A stretch of DNA of 64,000 bases from Methylobacterium sp. SyP6R (GTDB lineage: Bacteria; Pseudomonadota; Alphaproteobacteria; Rhizobiales; Beijerinckiaceae), in contig NZ_JAAQRC020000001.1 of assembly GCF_019216885.1 (NCBI RefSeq), positions 3,782,501-3,846,500 on the forward strand, read 5' to 3'. This document shows positions 25,563 to 41,027 of the stretch, piece by piece. The translations under genes were made by a program, and so were the position numbers. The notes under the pieces are model-generated. The model was not told the origin of the DNA. It saw only the letters and a list, made by a program, of their open reading frames with translations, and did not search any database. Every line of letters begins with the position of its first letter. Within the stretch, counting starts at the first letter, position 1.

Positions 25563-26504
25563 TCAGCCCGCCGGGTGCGGCAGGTCCGGCAGCCAGGCCG
25601 CCCCCTCCCCCACCAGGAAATCCCAGAACGCCTGGCCGGCGGGGCTCAGCACCTTGTCGGCCCGGCGCACCGAGAACCAGTCGCGGCGAATCGGCAGGCC
25701 CTCGACGTCGAGGAGCACAAGGCGGCCATCCGCGACCTCGGACGCCACGGTGTGGCCCGAGATCAGCGCGATGCCGAGGCCCGCCATCACGGTCTGCTTG
25801 ATGGTCTCGTTCGAGCCGCTGTCGATGCCGATGCGGGCGCGCCGGATCAAGAGGCCGGTCATGAACTCCTCGAACACCGTGCGCGTGCCCGAACCGTATT
25901 CCCGCACCAGGAACGGCTCCTCGGCGAGTTCCTCCCGGGTCAGTCCGCGCCGCCCGGCGAAGCGGTGGTCGGGGGCGGCGATCACCACCAGCGGATGGGG
26001 GCCGAAGCTCTCTGCCGCGATGGCGAAGTCCCGCGGCGGGCGGCCCATCAGGGCGAGGTCGACCCGGTAGTCGCGCAAGGCCTCGACGGTGGCGCCCCGG
26101 TTGCCGACCACGAGGTCGATCTCGACGCCCGGATGGGCCCGCGCGAAACCGCCGACGATCCGGGGCGCGAAGTACTTCGCGGTCGAGACCACGCCGAGGG
26201 AGACCCGGCCGCCATGGCCGCCGCGCAGGGTCCTGAGCCGCTCGGTACAGGTCTCCAGCACGGTGCCGATGCTGTCGATGGCCCAGAGCAGCTCGCGGCC
26301 GGCATCGGTGGGCTTCAGGCCGGCATGGGTGCGGTCGAACAGGAGCAGGCCGATCTCGTCCTCGAGCCCCTTGATCCGCGCCGTGAGGGCCGCCGGGGTC
26401 ACGTTCAGCTCCTGGGCCGCCCGGGTCATGGTGCCGAGCCGCGCGATCGCCGCGACGGCGTGGAGCTGCTTGAGGGAGAGGTTGCGAATCCGGTCCTGCG
26501 CCAT
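25563..26504 (-). CDS. LysR-type regulator, CbbR/QscR-like
   Basis: A 313-residue LysR regulator. The N-terminal winged helix covers about 8-67 (LKQLHAVAAIARLGTMTRAA, then QELNVTPAALTARIKGLE), and the C-terminal domain is a periplasmic-binding-protein fold with CbbR-like features (FLVREYGSGTR, GSNETIKQTVMAGLGIALIS). The ATG at 26504 is used because upstream residues have no family match. It is divergent from the FBPase-like/PRK pair with 183 bp between. CbbR proteins and QscR of Methylorubrum extorquens respond to Calvin or serine cycle metabolites; ribulose-1,5-bisphosphate is the reported effector of QscR. That this protein senses the product of the adjacent PRK is inference. Confidence 0.88.
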   Translation of the reverse strand: MAQDRIRNLSLKQLHAVAAIARLGTMTRAAQELNVTPAALTARIKGLEDEIGLLLFDRTHAGLKPTDAGRELLWAIDSIGTVLETCTERLRTLRGGHGGRVSLGVVSTAKYFAPRIVGGFARAHPGVEIDLVVGNRGATVEALRDYRVDLALMGRPPRDFAIAAESFGPHPLVVIAAPDHRFAGRRGLTREELAEEPFLVREYGSGTRTVFEEFMTGLLIRRARIGIDSGSNETIKQTVMAGLGIALISGHTVASEVADGRLVLLDVEGLPIRRDWFSVRRADKVLSPAGQAFWDFLVGEGAAWLPDLPHPAG

Positions 26505-26586
26505 CCGGTCCTCGGCCGCCGGCCGTGATCGTGAGGCCGTAAGAGGGGAAAGTTCCCGATCCGACATCGCCGGAGGCGCGGGCGCA

Positions 26587-26601
26587 TCCCGTACTTCGGG
26601 A
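26587..26601. promoter_or_regulatory. Candidate LysR operator
   Basis: TCCCG-TACTT-CGGGA, a perfect 5-bp inverted repeat starting with T and ending with A, in the 183-bp divergent region between the LysR gene and the FBPase-like gene. LysR regulators bind dyads with a T/A framework in such positions. Only one site of this kind was seen. Confidence 0.4.
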
Positions 26602-26687
26602 CAGGATGACGGGACGGCCCCCCGCCGCCTAAGCTGTCCGGTAGAGACCATGGGCCGGTCCGGGTGGGGCATTCTCGGGGATCGCAC

Positions 26688-27575
26688 ATGCTTCTGAGCG
26701 CCCGCATCGACGCGACCCCGCCGCGGCGCCAGCCGGCGGCCGGGTCGATCCTGGCCGCCCTCGCCGGAGCCGCCGCCGCGACCGCCGGCGAGATCGCCGC
26801 CATCCCGGGGGACCCGACGGGGGCCGCCCGGCGGATCTTCACCGAGTCCTTGCGCGGGGCCGAGGTCGCGGCGATCGCCTGGCCCGACGGCGACCGGCCG
26901 GAATTCCGCGTGAGGGGTGCCGAGTTCGTCCTCGCCCTCTGTCCGATGGAAGGGGCCGACGGCCTCGACGGCGGCCTGCCGGCCGGCACGATCTTCTCAC
27001 TACGCCCCGCCGGGGCCGACCCGGAGGCGGCCTTCCTGGCGCCGGGCCGGATGCAAGCCGCGGCGGGCTTCGTGACCTACGGCCCCCGCACCCTCCTGAC
27101 CCTGACCGACGGCACGACGACCACGACGCGGATCTTCGATCCGCAGAGCGGCAGCTTCCGGCCGCCCTCGGTGCTGCGCCTGTCGCGGGAGCCCGCAATC
27201 CTCGGCGAAAAACCGCGGGGCGCCGCGTGTGCCCGGAAAGCCGCACCGGCCTGCCGCTCCCTCGCGGCGGGCGCCCAGCGGGTGCTGACCCGCGGCGGCC
27301 TGCACGTCGTCACCGGGGATCCCCGCGCAGGCACCGGGATCCGGCTCGTCCACGAGGCGGCACCGGTCGCCCTCGCGATCGAGGCGGCCGGTGGCGCCGC
27401 CACGGACAAGCGCGGGCGGGCGATCCTCGACCTTCCCGCCGACGACCTCGACCGGCGCACCTCGCTGGCCATCGGGCCGGCCAGGGAGGTGGCGGATCTC
27501 GTCCGCGGCCTCGAGGCGGACCGCGACGCCGGCGGCTCGCCGCTCTTCGCCCCCCGCGGCCTGCTGCGGGGCTGA
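26688..27575 (+). CDS. Divergent class 1 fructose-1,6-bisphosphatase-like protein
   Basis: A 295-residue protein aligned by eye with class 1 FBPase: GTIFSLRP, AAGFVTYGPRTLLTLTDG, LTRGGLHVV, IRLVHEAAPVALAIEAAGGAA and the final ILDLPADDLDRRTSLAIG. Family length is about 330-345. The metal and phosphate motif DPLDGSSN is replaced by CPMEGADG, so the two key Asp are Cys and Glu, and the upstream Glu pair is not evident. The Glu in HEAAP is kept. The active site is therefore unlikely to work as usual; a regulatory, altered or decaying enzyme are the options. It is followed by PRK after 6 nt. A GTG 24 nt upstream is an alternative start. Confidence 0.75.
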   Translation: MLLSARIDATPPRRQPAAGSILAALAGAAAATAGEIAAIPGDPTGAARRIFTESLRGAEVAAIAWPDGDRPEFRVRGAEFVLALCPMEGADGLDGGLPAGTIFSLRPAGADPEAAFLAPGRMQAAAGFVTYGPRTLLTLTDGTTTTTRIFDPQSGSFRPPSVLRLSREPAILGEKPRGAACARKAAPACRSLAAGAQRVLTRGGLHVVTGDPRAGTGIRLVHEAAPVALAIEAAGGAATDKRGRAILDLPADDLDRRTSLAIGPAREVADLVRGLEADRDAGGSPLFAPRGLLRG

Positions 27576-27581
27576 CCGGGC

Positions 27582-28442
27582 GTGTCGGCGCTCCATCCCA
27601 TCGTGTCGGTCACCGGGTCGTCGGGCTCCGGCACCACCTCGGTGCGCAACACCTTCGAGCAGATCTTCCGCCGCGAGGGCGTCGAGGCGGTGTTCATCGA
27701 GGGCGACGCCTTCCACGCCTTCGATCGGGCCGAGATGCGCGCGGCGGAAGCCCGCGAGCCGACCCTGAGCCATTTCGGCGAGCGGGCGAACCTGCTCGCC
27801 GAACTCGAGGCGGTGTTTCGCGAATACGCCGCCTCGGGGCGCGGCCGCACCCGGCACTACGTGCACGATGCCGAGGATGCGGCCCGCTTCCGGGCCGAGC
27901 CCGGCACCTTCACCCCCTGGGAGGACTTTGCCGAGGGCTCCGACCTGCTGTTCTACGAGGGCCTGCACGGGGCGCTCGTCAACGAGCGGGTCGACATCGC
28001 CGGGCAGGCCGACCTCCGGATCGGCGTGGTGCCGGTGATCAACCTGGAATGGATCCAGAAGCTCCACCGCGACAAGGCGGCCCGCGGCTACTCGATCGAG
28101 GCGGTGACCGACGTGATCCTGCGCCGGATGCCCGACTACGTCACCACCATCTGCCCGCAATTCACCAACACGGACATCAACTTCCAGCGCATCCCGACGG
28201 TCGACACCTCGAACCCGTTCGTCGCCCGCTGGATCCCGACCGCCGACGAATCGATGGTGGTGATCCGCTTCCGCGACCCGAAGGGCATCGACTTCCCCTA
28301 CCTGATCTCGATGATCGCCGGCAGCTTCATGTCGCGGGCGAACTCGGTGGTGATCCCCGGCGGCAAGCTCGACCTCGCGATGCAGCTGATCCTGACCCCG
28401 ATGATCCTGCGCCTCGTCGAGCGACGCCGCCGCCTGCTCTGA
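27582..28442 (+). CDS. prkB: Phosphoribulokinase
   Basis: A 286-residue proteobacterial-type PRK converting ribulose 5-phosphate and ATP to ribulose 1,5-bisphosphate. The P-loop is GSSGSGTTS at about 11-19. Conserved segments follow: FIEGDAFHAFDRAEM, RTRHYVHDAEDA, LLFYEGLHGA, NLEWIQKLHRDKAARGYS, PQFTNTDINFQRIPTVDTSNPF and GKLDLAMQLIL. Length matches the family, and all expected blocks are present, so it should be active. GTG start, 6 nt after the FBPase-like stop. No RuBisCO, cbbX or other cbb gene follows within the window. Confidence 0.93.
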   Translation: MSALHPIVSVTGSSGSGTTSVRNTFEQIFRREGVEAVFIEGDAFHAFDRAEMRAAEAREPTLSHFGERANLLAELEAVFREYAASGRGRTRHYVHDAEDAARFRAEPGTFTPWEDFAEGSDLLFYEGLHGALVNERVDIAGQADLRIGVVPVINLEWIQKLHRDKAARGYSIEAVTDVILRRMPDYVTTICPQFTNTDINFQRIPTVDTSNPFVARWIPTADESMVVIRFRDPKGIDFPYLISMIAGSFMSRANSVVIPGGKLDLAMQLILTPMILRLVERRRRLL

Positions 28443-31393: not shown

Positions 31394-31640
31394 CGCGATC
31401 GGGTCGTGCCGCTCCCTCGCCGCAAGTGACCGGCGGCCAGTCCCGGAGAGGTTCGTGGAAATTCGTTAAGGTCCTCCTGCCGGAACCCCACGAATGCGAC
31501 GCATCGGGCCGTCCCGCCCTGCCGCGACGGCATGGGCGGACGGGTGCGCTGGCGCACATCGGCTCCGCTTGCCGAGGGTGCAGGAGCGGCCGCACACACG
31601 CAGGGCTGGAACCATTCCAGCCTCTCGTCGGAAGCGCACG

Positions 31641-32096
31641 ATGACGAAGCTCACCCTCAACGGCCGGACCTACGAGGTCGAGGCCGATCCCGAGATGCCG
31701 CTGCTCTGGGCGATCCGCGACCACCTCAACCTCACCGGCACCAAGTACGGCTGCGGCATCGCGCAATGCGGCGCCTGCACGGTGCATCTCGACGGCCAGC
31801 CGGTGCGCTCGTGCCAGACGCGGCTGGGCGATGTCGGCGAGGCCAAGATCACCACGATCGAGGGGATTTCCGGCCCGGTCGCCGAGGCGGTCCGGACCGC
31901 CTGGCGCAGCCTCGACGTGGTGCAGTGCGGCTATTGCCAGTCGGGCCAGATGATGTCGGCGATCGGCCTGCTCACCGAGAACAGGAAGCCGAGCGACGCC
32001 GACATCGACGCCGCCATGGACGGCAACGTCTGCCGCTGCGGCACCTACCAGCGCATCCGCGCGGCGATCCACGACGCCGCCCGCTCCCTCGCCTGA
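31641..32096 (+). CDS. 2Fe-2S subunit of molybdenum hydroxylase (IorA-like)
   Basis: A 151-residue protein with both clusters of the xanthine oxidase family: plant-type ferredoxin Cys at C38, C43, C46 and C58 (GCGIAQCGACTVHL), and the helical-bundle cluster at C96, C99, C131 and C133 (QCGYCQSGQ, NVCRCGTY). It passes electrons from the molybdenum subunit encoded 13 nt downstream. Two-subunit enzymes of this type include isoquinoline 1-oxidoreductase and periplasmic aldehyde oxidoreductases. No FAD subunit is present, in line with an external acceptor such as cytochrome c. Confidence 0.92.
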   Translation: MTKLTLNGRTYEVEADPEMPLLWAIRDHLNLTGTKYGCGIAQCGACTVHLDGQPVRSCQTRLGDVGEAKITTIEGISGPVAEAVRTAWRSLDVVQCGYCQSGQMMSAIGLLTENRKPSDADIDAAMDGNVCRCGTYQRIRAAIHDAARSLA

Positions 32097-32109
32097 CCGG
32101 GACGCCGCC

Positions 32110-34317
32110 ATGCTGAATTCTCGCCTCACGCCGCGCGCGAGCGCCGTCCCCTCCCGCCGCGCCGTCCTGGGCGGCACCGCCGCCGCCCTGGTGATCGGGC
32201 TCACCCTCGACCCCGACGTTTCGACCAAGGGCGCCCGGGCCGCGGGCGGTCCCGACCTGTCGAAGGCCCCGGCGAAGCCGAACGCCTTCGTGCGCATCGC
32301 CGCCGACGACACCGTGACGGTGGTGATCAAGCACCTCGACATGGGCCAGGGCAACACGACGGGGCTCGCCACCATCGTGGCCGAGGAGCTCGACGCCGAC
32401 TGGGCTCAGATGCGCGCCACCTTCGCGCCGGCCGATGCCAGCCTCTACAACAACCTCGCCTTCGGGCCGATCCAGGGTACCGGCGGCTCGACCGCGGTGG
32501 CCAATTCCTGGATCCAGCTGCGCAAGGCGGGGGCGGCCGCCCGCGCCATGCTGGTCGCTGCGGCCGCCGAGGAGTGGAAGGTGCCGGCCGGCGAGATCAC
32601 GGTCGAGAAGGGCGTGCTGCGCCATGCGAGCGGCAGGGAGAGCCGGTTCGGGGCGCTGGCTGCCAAGGCCGCCGTCCAGCCGATTCCCGAGAACCCGACG
32701 CTCAAGGACCCCTCCGCCTTCCGGCTGATCGGCACGAAGCTGCCGCGGCTCGATTCGAACGCCAAGACCGACGGCAGCGCGCGCTACGCCCTCGACATCC
32801 GCCGGCCGGGCCAGCTCACGGCGCTCGTCGCCCGTGCCCCCCGCTTCGGCGCGACGCTCAGAAACGTCGACGACACGGCCGCCAAGGCGGTGCCGGGCGT
32901 GGTGCAGATCGTCACGATCCCGAGCGGCGTCGCGGTGGTGGCGCGCGACACCTGGTCGGCGATGCAGGGCCGCAAGGCCCTGAAACTGACCTGGGACGAT
33001 GCCGGCGCCGAACGCCAATCGACGCAATCGCAAGCTGCCGCGTACAAGGCGCTGGCCGACAAGCCCGGCCTCGTCGCCTCGAAGCGCGGGGACGCCGCGG
33101 GCGCGATCAAGGGCGCGGCCAAGGTGCTGGAGGCGGAGTTCAGCTTTCCCTACCTGGCCCACGCCCCGATGGAGCCGCTCAACGCCACGATCGAGCGGGC
33201 GGCGGACGGCTCCTACGACATCCATGCCGGCTCGCAGTTCCAGACCATCGAGCAGGCGGTGGCCGCCGGCATCCTCGGCACCACCGCCGACAAGATCCGC
33301 ATCACCACGCTCTGGGCCGGCGGCTCGTTCGGCCGGCGCGCCACGGCCTCGGCCGACTACATCGCCGAAGCCGCCGCGATCCTGAAGGCCACCGGCGAGA
33401 AAGCCCCGATCCACCTCGTCTGGACCCGCGAGGACGACATCACCGGCGGCTATTACCGCCCGGCCGCCTACCACCGCATCCGCGCCGGCCTCGATGCCAA
33501 GGGGGCGGTCACGGGGTGGGAGCACCGCATCGTCGGCAAGTCGATCATCATCGGAACGCCGCTCGAGGCGATGATGGTGAAGGACGGGGTCGACGCCACC
33601 ACGGTCGAGGGCGCGGCGGACACCCCCTATGCGCTGCCGGCCTACCGGTTCGAGGTCCACAATGCCCGCGAGGGCGTGCCGGTCCTGTGGTGGCGCTCGG
33701 TCGGGCACTCCCACACCGCGCAGGCGATGGAGGTGTTCATCGACGAACTCGCCCACGCCGCCGGCCAGGACCCGGTCGCCTACCGCCTCGGCCTGCTCAA
33801 ACAGGCGCCGCGGCTCTCCGCCGCCCTGACGCTGGCGGCCGAGAAGGCGGGCTGGAGCGCCCGCGAGACGAAGCCGGGACGCGGCTACGGCGTCGCCGCC
33901 CACGAGTCGTTCGGCTCCTACGTGGCGATGGTGGCCGACGTGACGGCGGAGGCCGGCAAGGTGAAGGTGAACCGCATCGTTGCGGCGGTCGATGTCGGCG
34001 TGGCGGTGAACCCGGACATCATCCGGGCCCAGGTCGAGGGCGCGGTCGGCTTCGCGCTCTCGGCGGTCCTGCGCAACAGGATCACCTTCAAGGACGGCGA
34101 GGTGCAGGAGACCAACTTCGACGCCTACGAGCCGACCCGGATGAGCGAGATGCCGAAGGTCGAGGTCCACATCGTGCCATCGGCCGCCGCGCCCACCGGC
34201 ATCGGCGAGCCCGGCGTGCCGGTGCTGGCGCCCGCGATCTCGAACGCGGTCTTCGCCGCCACCGGCCAGCGCCTGCGCTCGCTGCCCCTCGACCTCACGG
34301 CGCTTCGTGGTGTGTGA
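32110..34317 (+). CDS. Molybdopterin-binding subunit of molybdenum hydroxylase (IorB-like)
   Basis: A 735-residue large subunit. A twin-arginine signal (SRRAVLGGTAAALVIG, residues 15-30) shows export of the folded enzyme. Family segments include HLDMGQGNTTGLATIVAEEL, GTGGSTAVANSW, YLAHAPMEPLNATI, GGSFGRRA, WWRSVGHSHTAQAMEVFIDELA and GIGEPGVPVLAPAISNA, the last carrying the Glu next to the molybdenum site. Substrate (N-heterocycle or aldehyde) cannot be decided. No XdhC-like maturation gene is adjacent, which is unusual for this family. Confidence 0.92.
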   Translation: MLNSRLTPRASAVPSRRAVLGGTAAALVIGLTLDPDVSTKGARAAGGPDLSKAPAKPNAFVRIAADDTVTVVIKHLDMGQGNTTGLATIVAEELDADWAQMRATFAPADASLYNNLAFGPIQGTGGSTAVANSWIQLRKAGAAARAMLVAAAAEEWKVPAGEITVEKGVLRHASGRESRFGALAAKAAVQPIPENPTLKDPSAFRLIGTKLPRLDSNAKTDGSARYALDIRRPGQLTALVARAPRFGATLRNVDDTAAKAVPGVVQIVTIPSGVAVVARDTWSAMQGRKALKLTWDDAGAERQSTQSQAAAYKALADKPGLVASKRGDAAGAIKGAAKVLEAEFSFPYLAHAPMEPLNATIERAADGSYDIHAGSQFQTIEQAVAAGILGTTADKIRITTLWAGGSFGRRATASADYIAEAAAILKATGEKAPIHLVWTREDDITGGYYRPAAYHRIRAGLDAKGAVTGWEHRIVGKSIIIGTPLEAMMVKDGVDATTVEGAADTPYALPAYRFEVHNAREGVPVLWWRSVGHSHTAQAMEVFIDELAHAAGQDPVAYRLGLLKQAPRLSAALTLAAEKAGWSARETKPGRGYGVAAHESFGSYVAMVADVTAEAGKVKVNRIVAAVDVGVAVNPDIIRAQVEGAVGFALSAVLRNRITFKDGEVQETNFDAYEPTRMSEMPKVEVHIVPSAAAPTGIGEPGVPVLAPAISNAVFAATGQRLRSLPLDLTALRGV

Positions 34318-37485: not shown

Positions 37486-39252
37486 ATGACCCTCGACCAG
37501 TGCCTCGCCTTCGGCCTCATCGGGGTCACCGTCCTGCTCTTCGTCTGGGGGCGGCTGCCCTACGACCTCGTGGCGCTCCTCTCCCTGGTCGCCGGGGTGG
37601 CTCTGGGGCTGGTGCCGGCCTCGAAGGCGTTCGACGGATTCGCCGACGACGTGGTGATCATCGTGGTGAGCGCGCTGGTGATCTCCGCCGCAATCTCCCG
37701 CTCGGGCGTGGTCGAGAGCGCGATGCGCCCGCTGCTGCCTTACTTGCGAAAACCCCGCCAGCAGGTGCCGGCGCTCGCCGGCGCGGTGATGGGGCTGTCG
37801 ATCGTCACCAAGAATATCGGGGCGCTCGCCATCTTCATGCCGGTGGCGCTCCAGCTCGGGCGCAAGACCGGCACGTCGGCCTCGCTGCTCCTGATGCCGA
37901 TGTCCTTCGCCTCGCTGATCGGCGGCCTCGTCACGCTGGTGGGCTCGTCGAACAACATCATCGTTGCCAAGGTGCGGGCCGACATCGTCGGCCAGCCCTT
38001 CGGAATGTTCGACTTCACCCCCGTCGGCCTCGGGCTGGCGGTGGCGGGCCTCGCCTTCCTGTCGGTGGGCTACCGGCTGCTCCCCAGGGACCGGCGCCCG
38101 GCCGGGTCGCTCGCCGCGGCGTTCCGGATCGAGGCCTATACCACCGAGGCCGGCCTGCCGGCGGAATCGCCCCTCGTCGGGGCCACGGTGGGCGAGCTGG
38201 AGGCGCTCGGCGACGGCGACGTGACGGTGGCGACCGTCATCCGCGAGCGGTTCCGCCGCTACGTGCCGGGGCCGGACTGGCGGCTGCAGGCCAACGACAT
38301 CCTGCTCCTCGACGGCGAGCCGGAGGACCTGGAGCGCCTGGTGGCGCGGGCCAAGCTCACCCTGGTCGGGACCCAGCCGGCCGGCGGCGAGATGACGGTG
38401 ATCGAGGCGGTGATCCCCGACGGCTCGGCGCTGGCCGGCACCACGGCGACGGATGCGGACCTCGCGGCGCGCTACGCCACCGCGCTGCTGGCCGTCAGCC
38501 GCAGCGGTGCCGCGATCACCCGGCGCATCGGCAGCGTGCGGTTGCGGGCCGGCGACGTGGTGGTTTTGCGCGCCGAAGCCGAGCGGCTGGCCGAGGTGCT
38601 CACCGAATTCGGCCTGCTGCCGCTCGCCGAGCGCAAACTGGCGCTCGGCCACAGCCGCCGCAGCTACATCCCGATCGCGGTGCTGGCCGGCGCGATGGCG
38701 CTGGTCGCGCTCCACCTCGTGCCGGTGGCGATGGCGTTCTTCGGCGCCGCGGTGCTGCTCCTGGTCCTGCGCGTCATGACCATGCACGAGGCCTACGAGA
38801 CGATCGAGTGGCCGGTGATCGTGCTGCTGGGCGCCCTGATCCCGGTGAGCGACGCGGTGCGGACGACCGGCGGCACCGACCTCATCGCCGGAGCGCTCTC
38901 GCACGCGATGCAGACGGTGCCGCCGATGCTGTCGATCGGGCTCCTGCTGATCGCCGCCATGGCGGTGACGCCGTTCCTCAACAACGCCGCGACGGTGCTG
39001 GTGATGGGGCCGATCGGCGCGAGCCTCGCCCAGAAGCTCGGGCTCAACCCGGACCCGTTCCTGATGGCGGTGTCGGTCGGCGCGGCCTGCGACTTCCTCA
39101 CCCCGATCGGCCACCAGTGCAACACCCTGGTGATGGGCCCGGGCGGCTACCGCTTCGGCGATTACGCCCGCCTCGGCCTCCCGCTGTCGATCATGGTGAT
39201 CGTCGTCGGCACGCTGCTGATCAGCCTGTTCTGGCCGGTAGCGATCCCATGA
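37486..39252 (+). CDS. SLC13/DASS-type permease with two TrkA-C domains
   Basis: A 588-residue membrane transporter. About five helices (1-205) are followed by two cytosolic TrkA C-terminal domains (about 215-300 and 305-385) and more helices to the end. Family motifs are TKNIGALAIFMPVALQLG and VGSSNNIIVAKV in the first half and FLNNAATVLVMGPIG and TPIGHQCNTLVMGPG in the second, the inverted repeats with the Ser-Asn-Asn/Thr sites. Such proteins move anions such as di-carboxylates or sulfate with Na+. ATG 37486 is preferred; ATG 37453 adds 11 residues. Confidence 0.88.
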   Translation: MTLDQCLAFGLIGVTVLLFVWGRLPYDLVALLSLVAGVALGLVPASKAFDGFADDVVIIVVSALVISAAISRSGVVESAMRPLLPYLRKPRQQVPALAGAVMGLSIVTKNIGALAIFMPVALQLGRKTGTSASLLLMPMSFASLIGGLVTLVGSSNNIIVAKVRADIVGQPFGMFDFTPVGLGLAVAGLAFLSVGYRLLPRDRRPAGSLAAAFRIEAYTTEAGLPAESPLVGATVGELEALGDGDVTVATVIRERFRRYVPGPDWRLQANDILLLDGEPEDLERLVARAKLTLVGTQPAGGEMTVIEAVIPDGSALAGTTATDADLAARYATALLAVSRSGAAITRRIGSVRLRAGDVVVLRAEAERLAEVLTEFGLLPLAERKLALGHSRRSYIPIAVLAGAMALVALHLVPVAMAFFGAAVLLLVLRVMTMHEAYETIEWPVIVLLGALIPVSDAVRTTGGTDLIAGALSHAMQTVPPMLSIGLLLIAAMAVTPFLNNAATVLVMGPIGASLAQKLGLNPDPFLMAVSVGAACDFLTPIGHQCNTLVMGPGGYRFGDYARLGLPLSIMVIVVGTLLISLFWPVAIP

Positions 39253-39350
39253 TATATTTATGGAAACAACACTTTGTGCGGTCGATATTTATATTTTTTA
39301 ATCTATCGCAATATAAAATTTCGTTAATTATATGATTAATAAATTAAATA

Positions 39351-40001
39351 CTATCTATATATTAATAGTGCCACTAAGGCATTGTTCCAAGCGTGGACAA
39401 GAAGCAATGTAAAAAATGCCTGATTGGCGTACCTGAGATATGTCAAGGTCAGACCTAAGGGAATGATCGCGATCGGGAGTGAATTCGCTCCGGTATAATG
39501 CGACATAACCCAAACGACACAAGTAGATATGGCGACAATTTCTACATTATATTTGCAAGAGATTAATTCCCATAGCCCGACTCGAAAAAGCGCTTCTTCT
39601 GCGAGGGGCATCAAAAATATAATACTAAATAAAAATAAGATGAAATCTGCATCTAATTGCATTTTATATTTTTGAATCATTTGATAATAATCAGCAACGC
39701 AAAGATAAGAGCTTATTAATATGATGGATAAAATAATAGGCATCAATTTTAAATTCTTATAATATCCATCTCTTATGTAACTACATTTTTTCCCCCGCAA
39801 AGCGATTATAGTCGCTACGCAGCAGCCGACCAAATTTACTATTGACCCTAGATAAATTAAGCGAAAGTTTACGCACATATTTACTGAACAATATGGCAAA
39901 AAATTTGATCTAATTATCAGAATAGCAAACACAAATGAAACCATGTATGAAACTAGAATTACTATTGAAACAACAAATATCCTCACTAAAATCATATTCA
40001 T
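39351..40001 (-). CDS. CPBP family intramembrane metalloprotease-like protein
   Basis: A 216-residue protein with six or seven hydrophobic segments. The CPBP/Abi motifs are complete: E135-E136-A-L-F-R140 (motif EExxxR), H168 in VMSHYTG, and H203-A-W-N206-N in LLVHAWNNAL. Members include Rce1-type CAAX proteases and bacteriocin-immunity proteins. Codon use is AT-rich and unlike its neighbours, in line with transfer. No bacteriocin gene was recognised, but the next ORF upstream on the same strand may be a partner. The function is inferred only from motifs. Confidence 0.78.
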   Translation of the reverse strand: MNMILVRIFVVSIVILVSYMVSFVFAILIIRSNFLPYCSVNMCVNFRLIYLGSIVNLVGCCVATIIALRGKKCSYIRDGYYKNLKLMPIILSIILISSYLCVADYYQMIQKYKMQLDADFILFLFSIIFLMPLAEEALFRVGLWELISCKYNVEIVAISTCVVWVMSHYTGANSLPIAIIPLGLTLTYLRYANQAFFTLLLVHAWNNALVALLIYR

Positions 40002-40061
40002 ATCGCGCCGCTGAATCGAATTACCGATACTAGGGATAGATCTGTAACGAGTGCGACCTAC

Positions 40062-40168
40062 CTAGAGCACTTCACGATCGCGCTGCAATCGCGAAGCTCT
40101 CTAGGTCTTTGATTTTGCCGCATTTTCTGCGACGAACCGGTATCCACTTCGTCGGAAAATGCTCTAGG
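40062..40168 (-). repeat. Palindromic repeat, family D copy 2
   Basis: Read on the minus strand: TAGAGCATTTTCCGACGAAG, TGGATACCGGTTCGTCGCAG, AAAATGCGGCAAAATCAAAG and ACCTAGAGAGCTTCGCGATT, ending in GTGCTCTAGG. It matches copy 1 at 23768 over the same order of blocks. It lies between the two genes of the AT-rich island and is itself GC-richer, so it may have moved in after the island. Confidence 0.8.
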
Positions 40169-40202
40169 CAAGCCACACTCATCAATTTTTAGTTTTTTTC
40201 AA

Positions 40203-40646
40203 TCATCCCGGCCCGCCACTCCAGTTATTGTCATAAGGATAGTACATCTGAGGGTAAGCACCATGTTCTGATATACCATATCCATTGTCTATCGGCATGA
40301 AAGAGCTAGTCCACGGCGCTGTTCCAGGCGCGAACGATCCATAACCAAAATTCGGATCAGCAGGTCTATACTGAGAAGGATCGTACGACGTGATAGCCGC
40401 GCCCATCCAACTGAACATCATTGTTCCGATTTTTCCCCATATTCCTCCAAAGAATCCTGAAAAACCCGAAACCGTATTTCCAGCTACGTTCTTGTATATG
40501 TCGCTACTGAAAGGCAGACTGCCTCCATCTCCGCGACCGGGCACAAAGCCATAGCCATCGCTATAAACGGGCGTACCACTGAACAAGCTTGCGACATCGT
40601 TACGACCGACATCGATTGCCGGCAGTGATATTGCCCCTTCGTACAT
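40203..40646 (-). CDS. Hypothetical Gly/Tyr/Pro-rich protein, maybe a 3' remnant
   Basis: A 147-residue ORF from ATG 40646 (a TTG lies one codon before). No family is recognised. The sequence is rich in Gly, Tyr, Pro and Ser, with a short hydrophobic Gly-rich stretch (SGFSGFFGGIWGKIGTMMF) and a C-terminus YPYDNNWSGGPG. The frame stays open upstream for about 22 more codons (to near 40713), which read RRGIDYYFDRQGRLMYEG with no usual start, so this could be the end of a longer protein. Base composition is lower in GC than core genes. It lies upstream of the CPBP gene on the same strand. Confidence 0.5.
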   Translation of the reverse strand: MYEGAISLPAIDVGRNDVASLFSGTPVYSDGYGFVPGRGDGGSLPFSSDIYKNVAGNTVSGFSGFFGGIWGKIGTMMFSWMGAAITSYDPSQYRPADPNFGYGSFAPGTAPWTSSFMPIDNGYGISEHGAYPQMYYPYDNNWSGGPG

Positions 40647-41027
40647 CAATCTGCCTTGGCGGTCAAAGTAATAATCGATGCCGCGGCGATCAGCTTCGAT
40701 AGAGTCAATATCTAATCACCTATTTGTTTCAAGTTACCCAAGGAAAATACCCGTATCAATTTCTACAGCAACATTTTTATAGGATTATGCATTTCCGCAT
40801 AGGCCTTACCATATAGTAGATATATAATAATATTTTGTTATGTAATTGAATTTTTGCTTATTTGATAAATTTGTTTTTCGTGTTCGCTATTAAATAGATT
40901 TTGTAAGTATTTTTTCTTGCGAATTCGCGGTTCACAAAACGTGATCCGAGCACCGGTAGAAATGTGTGACACCTTGTCGCCACGGGCCAGAATCGTGTCT
41001 CCCGGGCCCGGGGGATACAGAGGGGGC
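40647..41027. other. AT-rich intergenic region before ccmI
   Basis: 381 bp, very AT-rich up to about 40930, then GC-rich. It probably holds the promoter of the ORF on the minus strand and of ccmI on the plus strand. No gene or repeat was seen. Confidence 0.5.

Follow-up and report, generated by a model that had tools for sequence, protein, structure and literature searches.

Methylobacterium sp. SyP6R contains, in a 64,000-nucleotide stretch of contig NZ_JAAQRC020000001.1 (positions 3,782,501 to 3,846,500; below, the window), a cluster of three genes at window positions 25563–28442. They encode a LysR-type regulator, a protein related to fructose-1,6-bisphosphatase (FBPase) and a phosphoribulokinase (PRK). 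The cluster is quite probably a RuBisCO-less remnant of a Calvin-cycle gene cluster that has been kept as a ribulose-1,5-bisphosphate (RuBP) signalling module, with the LysR regulator, as an orthologue of QscR, steering the serine cycle. A preliminary description of this DNA inferred that PRK is retained because the neighboring LysR reads RuBP as a signal, and this inference explains the data best. The module proposed there was supported in part: the genus without RuBisCO, the kept PRK, the CbbR-clade LysR and an operator at the serine-cycle operon speak for it, and a dyad at position 26587 is not supported as its control point. The trio of a CbbR-like LysR, an FBPase-like gene and an intact PRK, with no cbbLS in the cluster, was borne out by profile matches.

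The genome of the strain (G000, 7.52 Mb, 6 contigs) was analyzed within a survey of 111 genomes of the genus, itself included. The species group of the window comprises 15 genomes (the window and loci L129–L142), and loci L143–L146 are referred to as sister loci.

Phosphoribulokinase in a genus without RuBisCO

The prk gene (27582–28442, + strand) starts with GTG 6 nt past the stop codon of the upstream gene, encodes a class I PRK of 286 aa and is the only PRK match in its own genome. The protein scored 472 bits with the class I model NF011997, above the cut-off of 362, and 437.8 bits with the R. sphaeroides PRK (1a7j) in an alignment spanning residues 1–281 of 286. A length of 286 aa was observed at all 31 Methylobacterium loci and of 291 aa at L025, L029, L043 and L062; the shorter Methylobacterium protein has a gap relative to 1a7j near residue 55. 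PRK is present in 109 of the 111 genomes, and the two genomes with no match are 93% and 70% complete.

No true RuBisCO large subunit (form I–III, KPK motif) was detected in the SyP6R genome, the small subunit not having been searched for. The presence of a large subunit elsewhere in the genome was rejected, as the sole family member is a RuBisCO-like protein (RLP) encoded at C1:4490743–4491579, about 0.68 Mb from the cluster. The complete RuBisCO operon that would have refuted the model of the preliminary description did not appear. The RLP carries KPS where RuBisCO has KPK; its closest solved relative is 3nwr, "a rubisco-like protein" (437 bits), and its top NCBIfam model is OiaX (465.8 bits, under the cut-off of 700). 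An open reading frame (ORF) for a kinase with SBD_N and NBD_C domains adjoins the RLP gene. The similarity to OiaX together with this kinase ORF points to a putative role in sugar-acid catabolism.

Across the genus, a true RuBisCO large subunit was found in none of the 111 genomes. RuBisCO-family members occur in 20 of them (23 search rows representing 22 genes), and all are RLPs, namely, that of SyP6R and 21 others. Set against a form I cbbL and the SyP6R RLP, the 21 show 27–31% identity to the former and 55–95% to the latter; one of them is a 76-residue end only, with no cbbL match. The RLP gene of one genome of the species group (L184, G004:C499:5719–6552) showed an internal TAG in the family search. 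PRK was found in 90 of the 91 genomes that have no RuBisCO-family gene. Judging from these sequences, genomes of the genus as a rule have PRK but no true RuBisCO large subunit.

Of the 108 genomes with both lysR and prk, 106 have the two genes within a few kb of each other on a single contig, as judged by eye from lists of places; in G001 and G010 they lie on different contigs. As for PRK loci outside Methylobacterium, a RuBisCO-family match was found in the examined flank of 54 of 68 (48 matches with at least 77% identity over at least 471 residues, four with 31–33% identity and two partial). The flanks of the same 68 loci contained an opposite-strand CbbR-like LysR in 57 cases and an FBPase in 66. 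Since 54 of these loci have a flanking RuBisCO-family match, the linkage of PRK to RuBisCO is probably ancestral.

The LysR regulator

The lysR gene (25563–26504, − strand) encodes 313 aa from the ATG at 26504, the same length as the best database match, P0001. The frame of 25563–26687 given in the preliminary description is too long; this ATG is a likelier start than the GTG at 26687. The protein matches Pfam LysR_substrate (184.7 bits) and HTH_1 (66.6 bits). In a FastTree phylogeny of 98 sequences, read without support values and rooted on five paralogues from the same genome, the LysR of the window and those of the genus lie inside the CbbR group, and the placement outside this clade that would have spoken against the signalling model did not occur. 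The regulator is the only CbbR-clade LysR of its genome, in which the next LysR reaches 91 bits and 30% identity.

A match at E ≤ 1e-30 was present in 109 of the 111 genomes. Close matches number one per genome except in G011 (two frames) and G077 (three pieces; this genome is 85% complete and 5% contaminated), and eleven genomes have additional LysRs at 30–33% identity. The two frames of G011 (locus L132) overlap, covering residues 1–103 and 98–312, and reflect either a true frameshift or an assembly error.

In excerpts of the literature, QscR is described as a LysR-type homologue of CbbR; it activates the genes of the serine cycle, represses itself and is encoded away from known serine-cycle genes (PMC2680597). 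It is further described there as responding to R1,5P, with a Methylococcus homologue of 41% identity (PMC8388818).

A T-rich operator at lysR and at the serine-cycle operon

The lysR–cbbF regions of the main genus share a T-rich element, TTTTTTTG-N12-AAGTTTTTTCAG..TTC(C)TT, located near lysR and found with variants. A 22 bp matrix built from 21 of these regions scored 13.0 in the sga upstream region of SyP6R, at about −214 (background of 556 segments: median −14.0, 95% point −1.4, maximum 14.0). Scores of at least 10.0 were obtained in 21 of 24 sga regions. At L203 the best matrix match is not the operator, which is revealed there by a two-block pattern.

This pattern, TTTTG-N11/12-AGTTTTTT, taken partly from the sites themselves, gave 39 matches in 156 stretches totalling 1.196 Mb: 22 lie no more than 900 bp from an sga start and 17 near a lysR start. 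The stretches overlap, and the matches correspond to 33 distinct places (18 at sga, 15 at lysR). The remaining 1.01 Mb compared contained no match, and the control with swapped blocks also gave none. At lysR, the strict form is present in 11 of the 21 main-genus regions. In addition, the sga-type pattern AGTTTTTTCANTTTTCCTT (up to 2 mismatches) was found once at sga in each of five whole genomes, chosen among those with sga sites already viewed; the reversed control gave 0 matches. The SyP6R genome has a further, weaker match at C1:2954468, with 2 mismatches, inside a hypothetical ORF.

The names sga and hprA were assigned by gene order and family; the top NCBIfam model of the sga product is BhcA (553.8 bits, under the cut-off of 650). 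At L162, sga is followed by genes for a 2-hydroxyacid dehydrogenase, an Mpt_N protein (MtdA), FchA and the malate-CoA ligase beta subunit, the last two exceeding their NCBIfam cut-offs. In the SyP6R operon, Pfam matches identify the aminotransferase, the dehydrogenase and the Mpt_N protein, and tblastn matches identify fchA and mtkA. Matches to Sga and to Mpt_N (MtdA/MtdB) were each present in all 111 genomes. The distribution of the operator supports a link between the PRK-linked LysR and the serine cycle, as expected of QscR. The LysR of the window is likely the QscR orthologue, because it belongs to the CbbR clade, is the sole CbbR-clade LysR of its genome and has an operator common to lysR and the serine-cycle operon.

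The control region in the species group of the window

The 183 bp that separate the divergent lysR and FBPase-like genes (26505–26687) form a control region without the T-rich operator of the main genus and of two sister-lineage loci. No matrix site (scores −25.6 to 0.8) and no two-block pattern was found in 12 of 12 lysR–fbp regions of the species group. Upstream of sga, however, the group has AGTTTTTTCA(A/G)TTTTCCTT in 14 of 14 regions, in the two-block form in 10 of them. Among the sister loci, the operator at lysR is kept in L143 and L144 and absent from L146; L145 is cut.

The center of a nearly invariant block in the species group is the GC-rich dyad TCCCGTACTTCGGGA (26587–26601). Among the 13 group genomes with the region, 12 have an identical copy and L138 has a copy with one change. 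The compared Methylobacterium stretches, several of which overlap, contained 29 exact copies, every one at the lysR/FBPase-like control region; no copy lay beyond this place in the sequence compared, a genome-wide dyad search not having been made. Beyond the dyad block, all 12 aligned group loci have TGACG and CTAA.CTG. In the window their spacing is promoter-like, and TGACGG-N17-TAAGCT (26607–26635, + strand), read by eye, is a candidate promoter toward the FBPase-like gene and prk. Scanning 26400–26800 for the sigma-70 consensus and for terminators gave no matches.

By its sequence and conservation, the dyad is a near-invariant element distinct from the T-rich operator. The preliminary description had the enzyme and sensor genes share one control region with this dyad. 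A role of that region as the QscR/RuBP control point is not supported, given that the dyad differs from the operator, which in the species group is gone here and kept at sga.

It is conceivable, if rather doubtful, that the dyad is a new QscR site of the group and that lysR and prk are still controlled through a changed sequence. The dyad is near-invariant and adjoins the candidate −35, and the recognition helix of the group (TSAALYARIRQL) differs from that of the main genus (TPAALTARIKGL). However, L143 and L144 have a nearly equal helix (TPAALTARIKAL) and yet keep the T-rich operator at lysR. Since the helix of the sister loci almost equals that of the group, a changed helix is by itself insufficient to account for the operator loss. 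The T-rich block retained at all 14 sga regions compared from the group and the confinement of the dyad, in the sequence compared, to one place also argue against this reading.

The FBPase-like gene

The gene between lysR and prk (26688–27575, + strand) encodes an FBPase-derived protein of 295 aa with matches to PF00316 (42.0 bits) and FBPase_C (50.1 bits). With the FBPase equivalog it scored 136.5 bits, far under the cut-off of 358, the intact CbbF of L012 scoring 448.1. At the metal-ligand motifs SEE and DPLDG the protein has IAWPDGD and ALCPMEGADG, and its substrate-loop region is shortened. In an alignment of 35 sequences, all 16 comparison loci have SEE and DPLDG, and the pair is incomplete in the window and in 18 loci of the group or the sister lineages (in L145 and L146 the sequence is truncated or gapped at one motif or at both; L135 and L137 retain the first Asp). 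The loss of these catalytic residues was missed in the preliminary description. An active FBPase was rejected in view of the missing motifs, which make such activity improbable. The SyP6R genome encodes one class I FBPase homologue, which is this protein, and one GlpX; GlpX was found in 109 of the 111 genomes. AlphaFold modelled the FBPase-like protein poorly (mean predicted local distance difference test score 51.2, 15 sequences), and the model was not used.

A plain pseudogene as the sole account was also rejected, because the frame is unbroken in 11 aligned species and the windowed ratio of nonsynonymous to synonymous substitution rates (dN/dS) is low in the core. In these species the frame is continuous from a shared MLLS start to a common end before prk. 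However, the sequences were translated to the first stop, so the absence of stops is partly by construction, and GC-rich DNA favours long open frames. Windowed dN/dS was 0.22 around GTIFSLRPAG...AAGFVTYG, about 0.35 around RGGLH and IRLVHEAAP, 0.60–0.92 at the decayed substrate loop and 0.41–0.56 in other windows.

Median dN/dS in the species group was 0.144 for lysR (66 pairs), 0.459 for fbp (91 pairs) and 0.152 for prk (91 pairs), with median dS of 0.27, 0.45 and 0.23, respectively; in 11 main-genus loci, dN/dS was 0.209, 0.278 and 0.150 (55 pairs each). By these estimates, purifying selection is strong for lysR and prk and partial for the FBPase-like gene. The fbp value of 0.46 with raised dS shows relaxed constraint, which weighs against rejecting a pseudogene.

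The distance from the FBPase stop codon to the PRK start is 2–6 nt in 14 of 15 group loci, and in L129 the FBPase-like frame continues into prk. Among 12 main-genus loci, 11 show a gap of 19–39 nt, and in the remaining one, L155, the FBPase frame is interrupted. This main-genus FBPase (G103) has intact motifs, and its frame breaks after about residue 215, owing to an independent loss or a sequencing error. The FBPase-like gene is read as a putative pseudoenzyme kept in frame through translational coupling, protein function, or both. The locus offers a series of enzyme-to-pseudoenzyme change.

Proposed mechanism and alternatives

The cluster would represent a remnant Calvin-cycle operon (divergent cbbR, then cbbF-cbbP) in which PRK converts ribulose 5-phosphate to RuBP, with no RuBisCO to use the product up. 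The CbbR-clade LysR would sense RuBP and activate the serine-cycle operon via the T-rich operator that precedes sga. This operator also fronts lysR and cbbF-prk across the main genus and in two sister loci, where the sensor could thereby regulate the source of its own signal. In the species group of the window the loop seems to have been opened, the operator being lost at lysR and prk and another conserved element, the dyad, occupying the region. The class I FBPase, redundant with GlpX, has lost its catalytic motifs and would survive as a PRK partner or a leader kept in frame. A more specific version is less likely than not: in an opened circuit, the sensor may have ceased to control the gene for its own signal, prk may have come under the new conserved element, and the pseudo-FBPase may be a selected, translationally coupled, non-catalytic partner of PRK that sets the level of the RuBP signal.

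Several observations weigh against the signalling account. The operator is absent at prk in the species group, so self-control of the signal source is unsupported there. In 116 kb of SyP6R sequence the sga site ranks second, behind a match of 15.8 located about 2.8 kb upstream of the gene. Of seven main-genus sga regions, three have low matrix scores (L175, 4.6; L215, 7.2; L216, 5.9), and an ungapped comparison of lysR and sga control regions from the same genome was clearly above random in 3 of 8 pairs. The two-block pattern was defined after some of its sites had been viewed. Moreover, the top NCBIfam model of the regulator is CbbR (NF045990), with 342.6 bits, short of the cut-off of 450, and its probable QscR identity is argued from clade, single copy and operator, not from direct comparison. 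Formyl-H4F, NADP+, acetyl-CoA and glyoxylate modulate QscR binding according to an excerpt of PMC3486813, and RuBP need not be the only input of QscR. Finally, PRK has a positive fitness score of 1.15 in a CRISPR interference table for Methylococcus, which has RuBisCO (PMC13108547, seen as an excerpt).

It is unlikely that the regulator is an ordinary CbbR acting on its neighbors only, with the serine cycle under another LysR. The CbbR model as top match and the other LysRs of the genus at 30–33% identity favor this. However, the operator occurs only at sga and lysR in the sequence compared, the five whole genomes contain it only at sga plus one weak match, and SyP6R has no second CbbR-clade LysR.

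Slightly less probable still is a metabolic role, in which PRK supplies RuBP to a non-RuBisCO enzyme such as an RLP or a HAD phosphatase. SyP6R does encode an RLP, and 20 of the 111 genomes have RuBisCO-family genes. In the main-genus loci (L011–L021, L147, L148, L153–L156), rpe is located downstream of prk in 17 of 17 and a HAD gene as well in 16 of 17, the exception being L015 on a short contig. Among the species group and the four sister loci, a HAD gene appears in the examined flank in L143 and L144 only, and rpe was not found in the examined flank of either the 15 group genomes or the sister loci. The downstream proteins were compared with profile models at L012: the rpe product passes TIGR01163, and for the HAD protein none of the matches listed reaches an equivalog cut-off. 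This HAD protein reaches only 24.9 bits with the RuBP 5-phosphatase model NF053830 (cut-off 330), which argues against such a role, as does the near-constant presence of PRK in the 91 genomes lacking RuBisCO-family genes. The SyP6R RLP, nearest OiaX and beside a kinase ORF, would rather belong to sugar-acid catabolism.

A decaying Calvin-cycle relic, in which RuBisCO was lost and lysR, fbp and prk persist by inertia with no present function, would fit the missing rpe and HAD genes, the lost FBPase motifs and the redundancy implied by GlpX, but is improbable given prk in 109 of 111 genomes, dN/dS of about 0.15 for prk and lysR, and identities to the window of 93–97% for prk and 91–98% for lysR, against 58–83% for fbp.

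Other features of the window

Two histidine kinase genes lie downstream of the cluster, in agreement with the unrelated kinases of the preliminary description, and a REC-HD response regulator is encoded on the opposite side. At 31494–34317 the window encodes a pair consisting of a 2Fe-2S protein and a large subunit that binds molybdopterin cofactor, of the xanthine dehydrogenase/aldehyde oxidoreductase kind. A patch of 41–45% GC at 39000–41000, inside surroundings of 67–77% GC, may be a recent insertion; it contains ORFs for an Rce1-like membrane protein of the CAAX-protease family (39351–40001, − strand) and for a small product with no Pfam match (40203–40649, − strand).

Comparison with known systems

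PRK-QscR RuBP signalling was reportedly described in Methylorubrum extorquens by Ochsner et al. in 2017, and RuBP-QscR signalling as such is already known from that species. The cluster of the window resembles this system, as far as its sequence indicates, in having PRK and RuBP control C1 assimilation through a CbbR-type LysR with the serine-cycle operon as target. It differs in having no operator at lysR or prk, no rpe and HAD gene and an FBPase without its motifs. The preliminary description placed the RuBP result in strain AM1; an excerpt of PMC11252147 gives strain PA1 instead. The present analysis adds the pattern across the genus, an operator common to lysR and the serine-cycle operon, the absence of this operator from lysR and prk in the species group, and a pseudo-FBPase apparently under selection. 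In the titles and abstracts searched, which cover the literature in part, nothing was found on a lost QscR operator or on a pseudo-FBPase beside prk.

Class I FBPase, represented by the intact cbbF of L012, shares with the FBPase-like protein common ancestry, the PF00316 and FBPase_C matches and conserved core segments; the latter protein lacks SEE, DPLDG and part of the substrate loop. OiaX is the closest model of the only RuBisCO homologue of the genome, which falls under the OiaX cut-off and lies far outside the cluster.

The CbbR-cbb operons of autotrophic Alphaproteobacteria, such as that of Bradyrhizobium (L043), have the same gene order, with a divergent cbbR followed by cbbF-cbbP, and RuBP or its derivatives have been proposed as CbbR co-inducers (PMC8307300, excerpt). 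In contrast to L043, the window has no downstream transketolase, aldolase or cbbL, its FBPase is degenerate, its PRK has 286 aa instead of 291, and the target of its LysR has apparently moved to the serine cycle. Sister lineages with and without the operator of the sensor at its signal source form a natural experiment, and the whole suggests that a Calvin-cycle intermediate acts as a regulatory signal throughout a genus that has lost carbon fixation.

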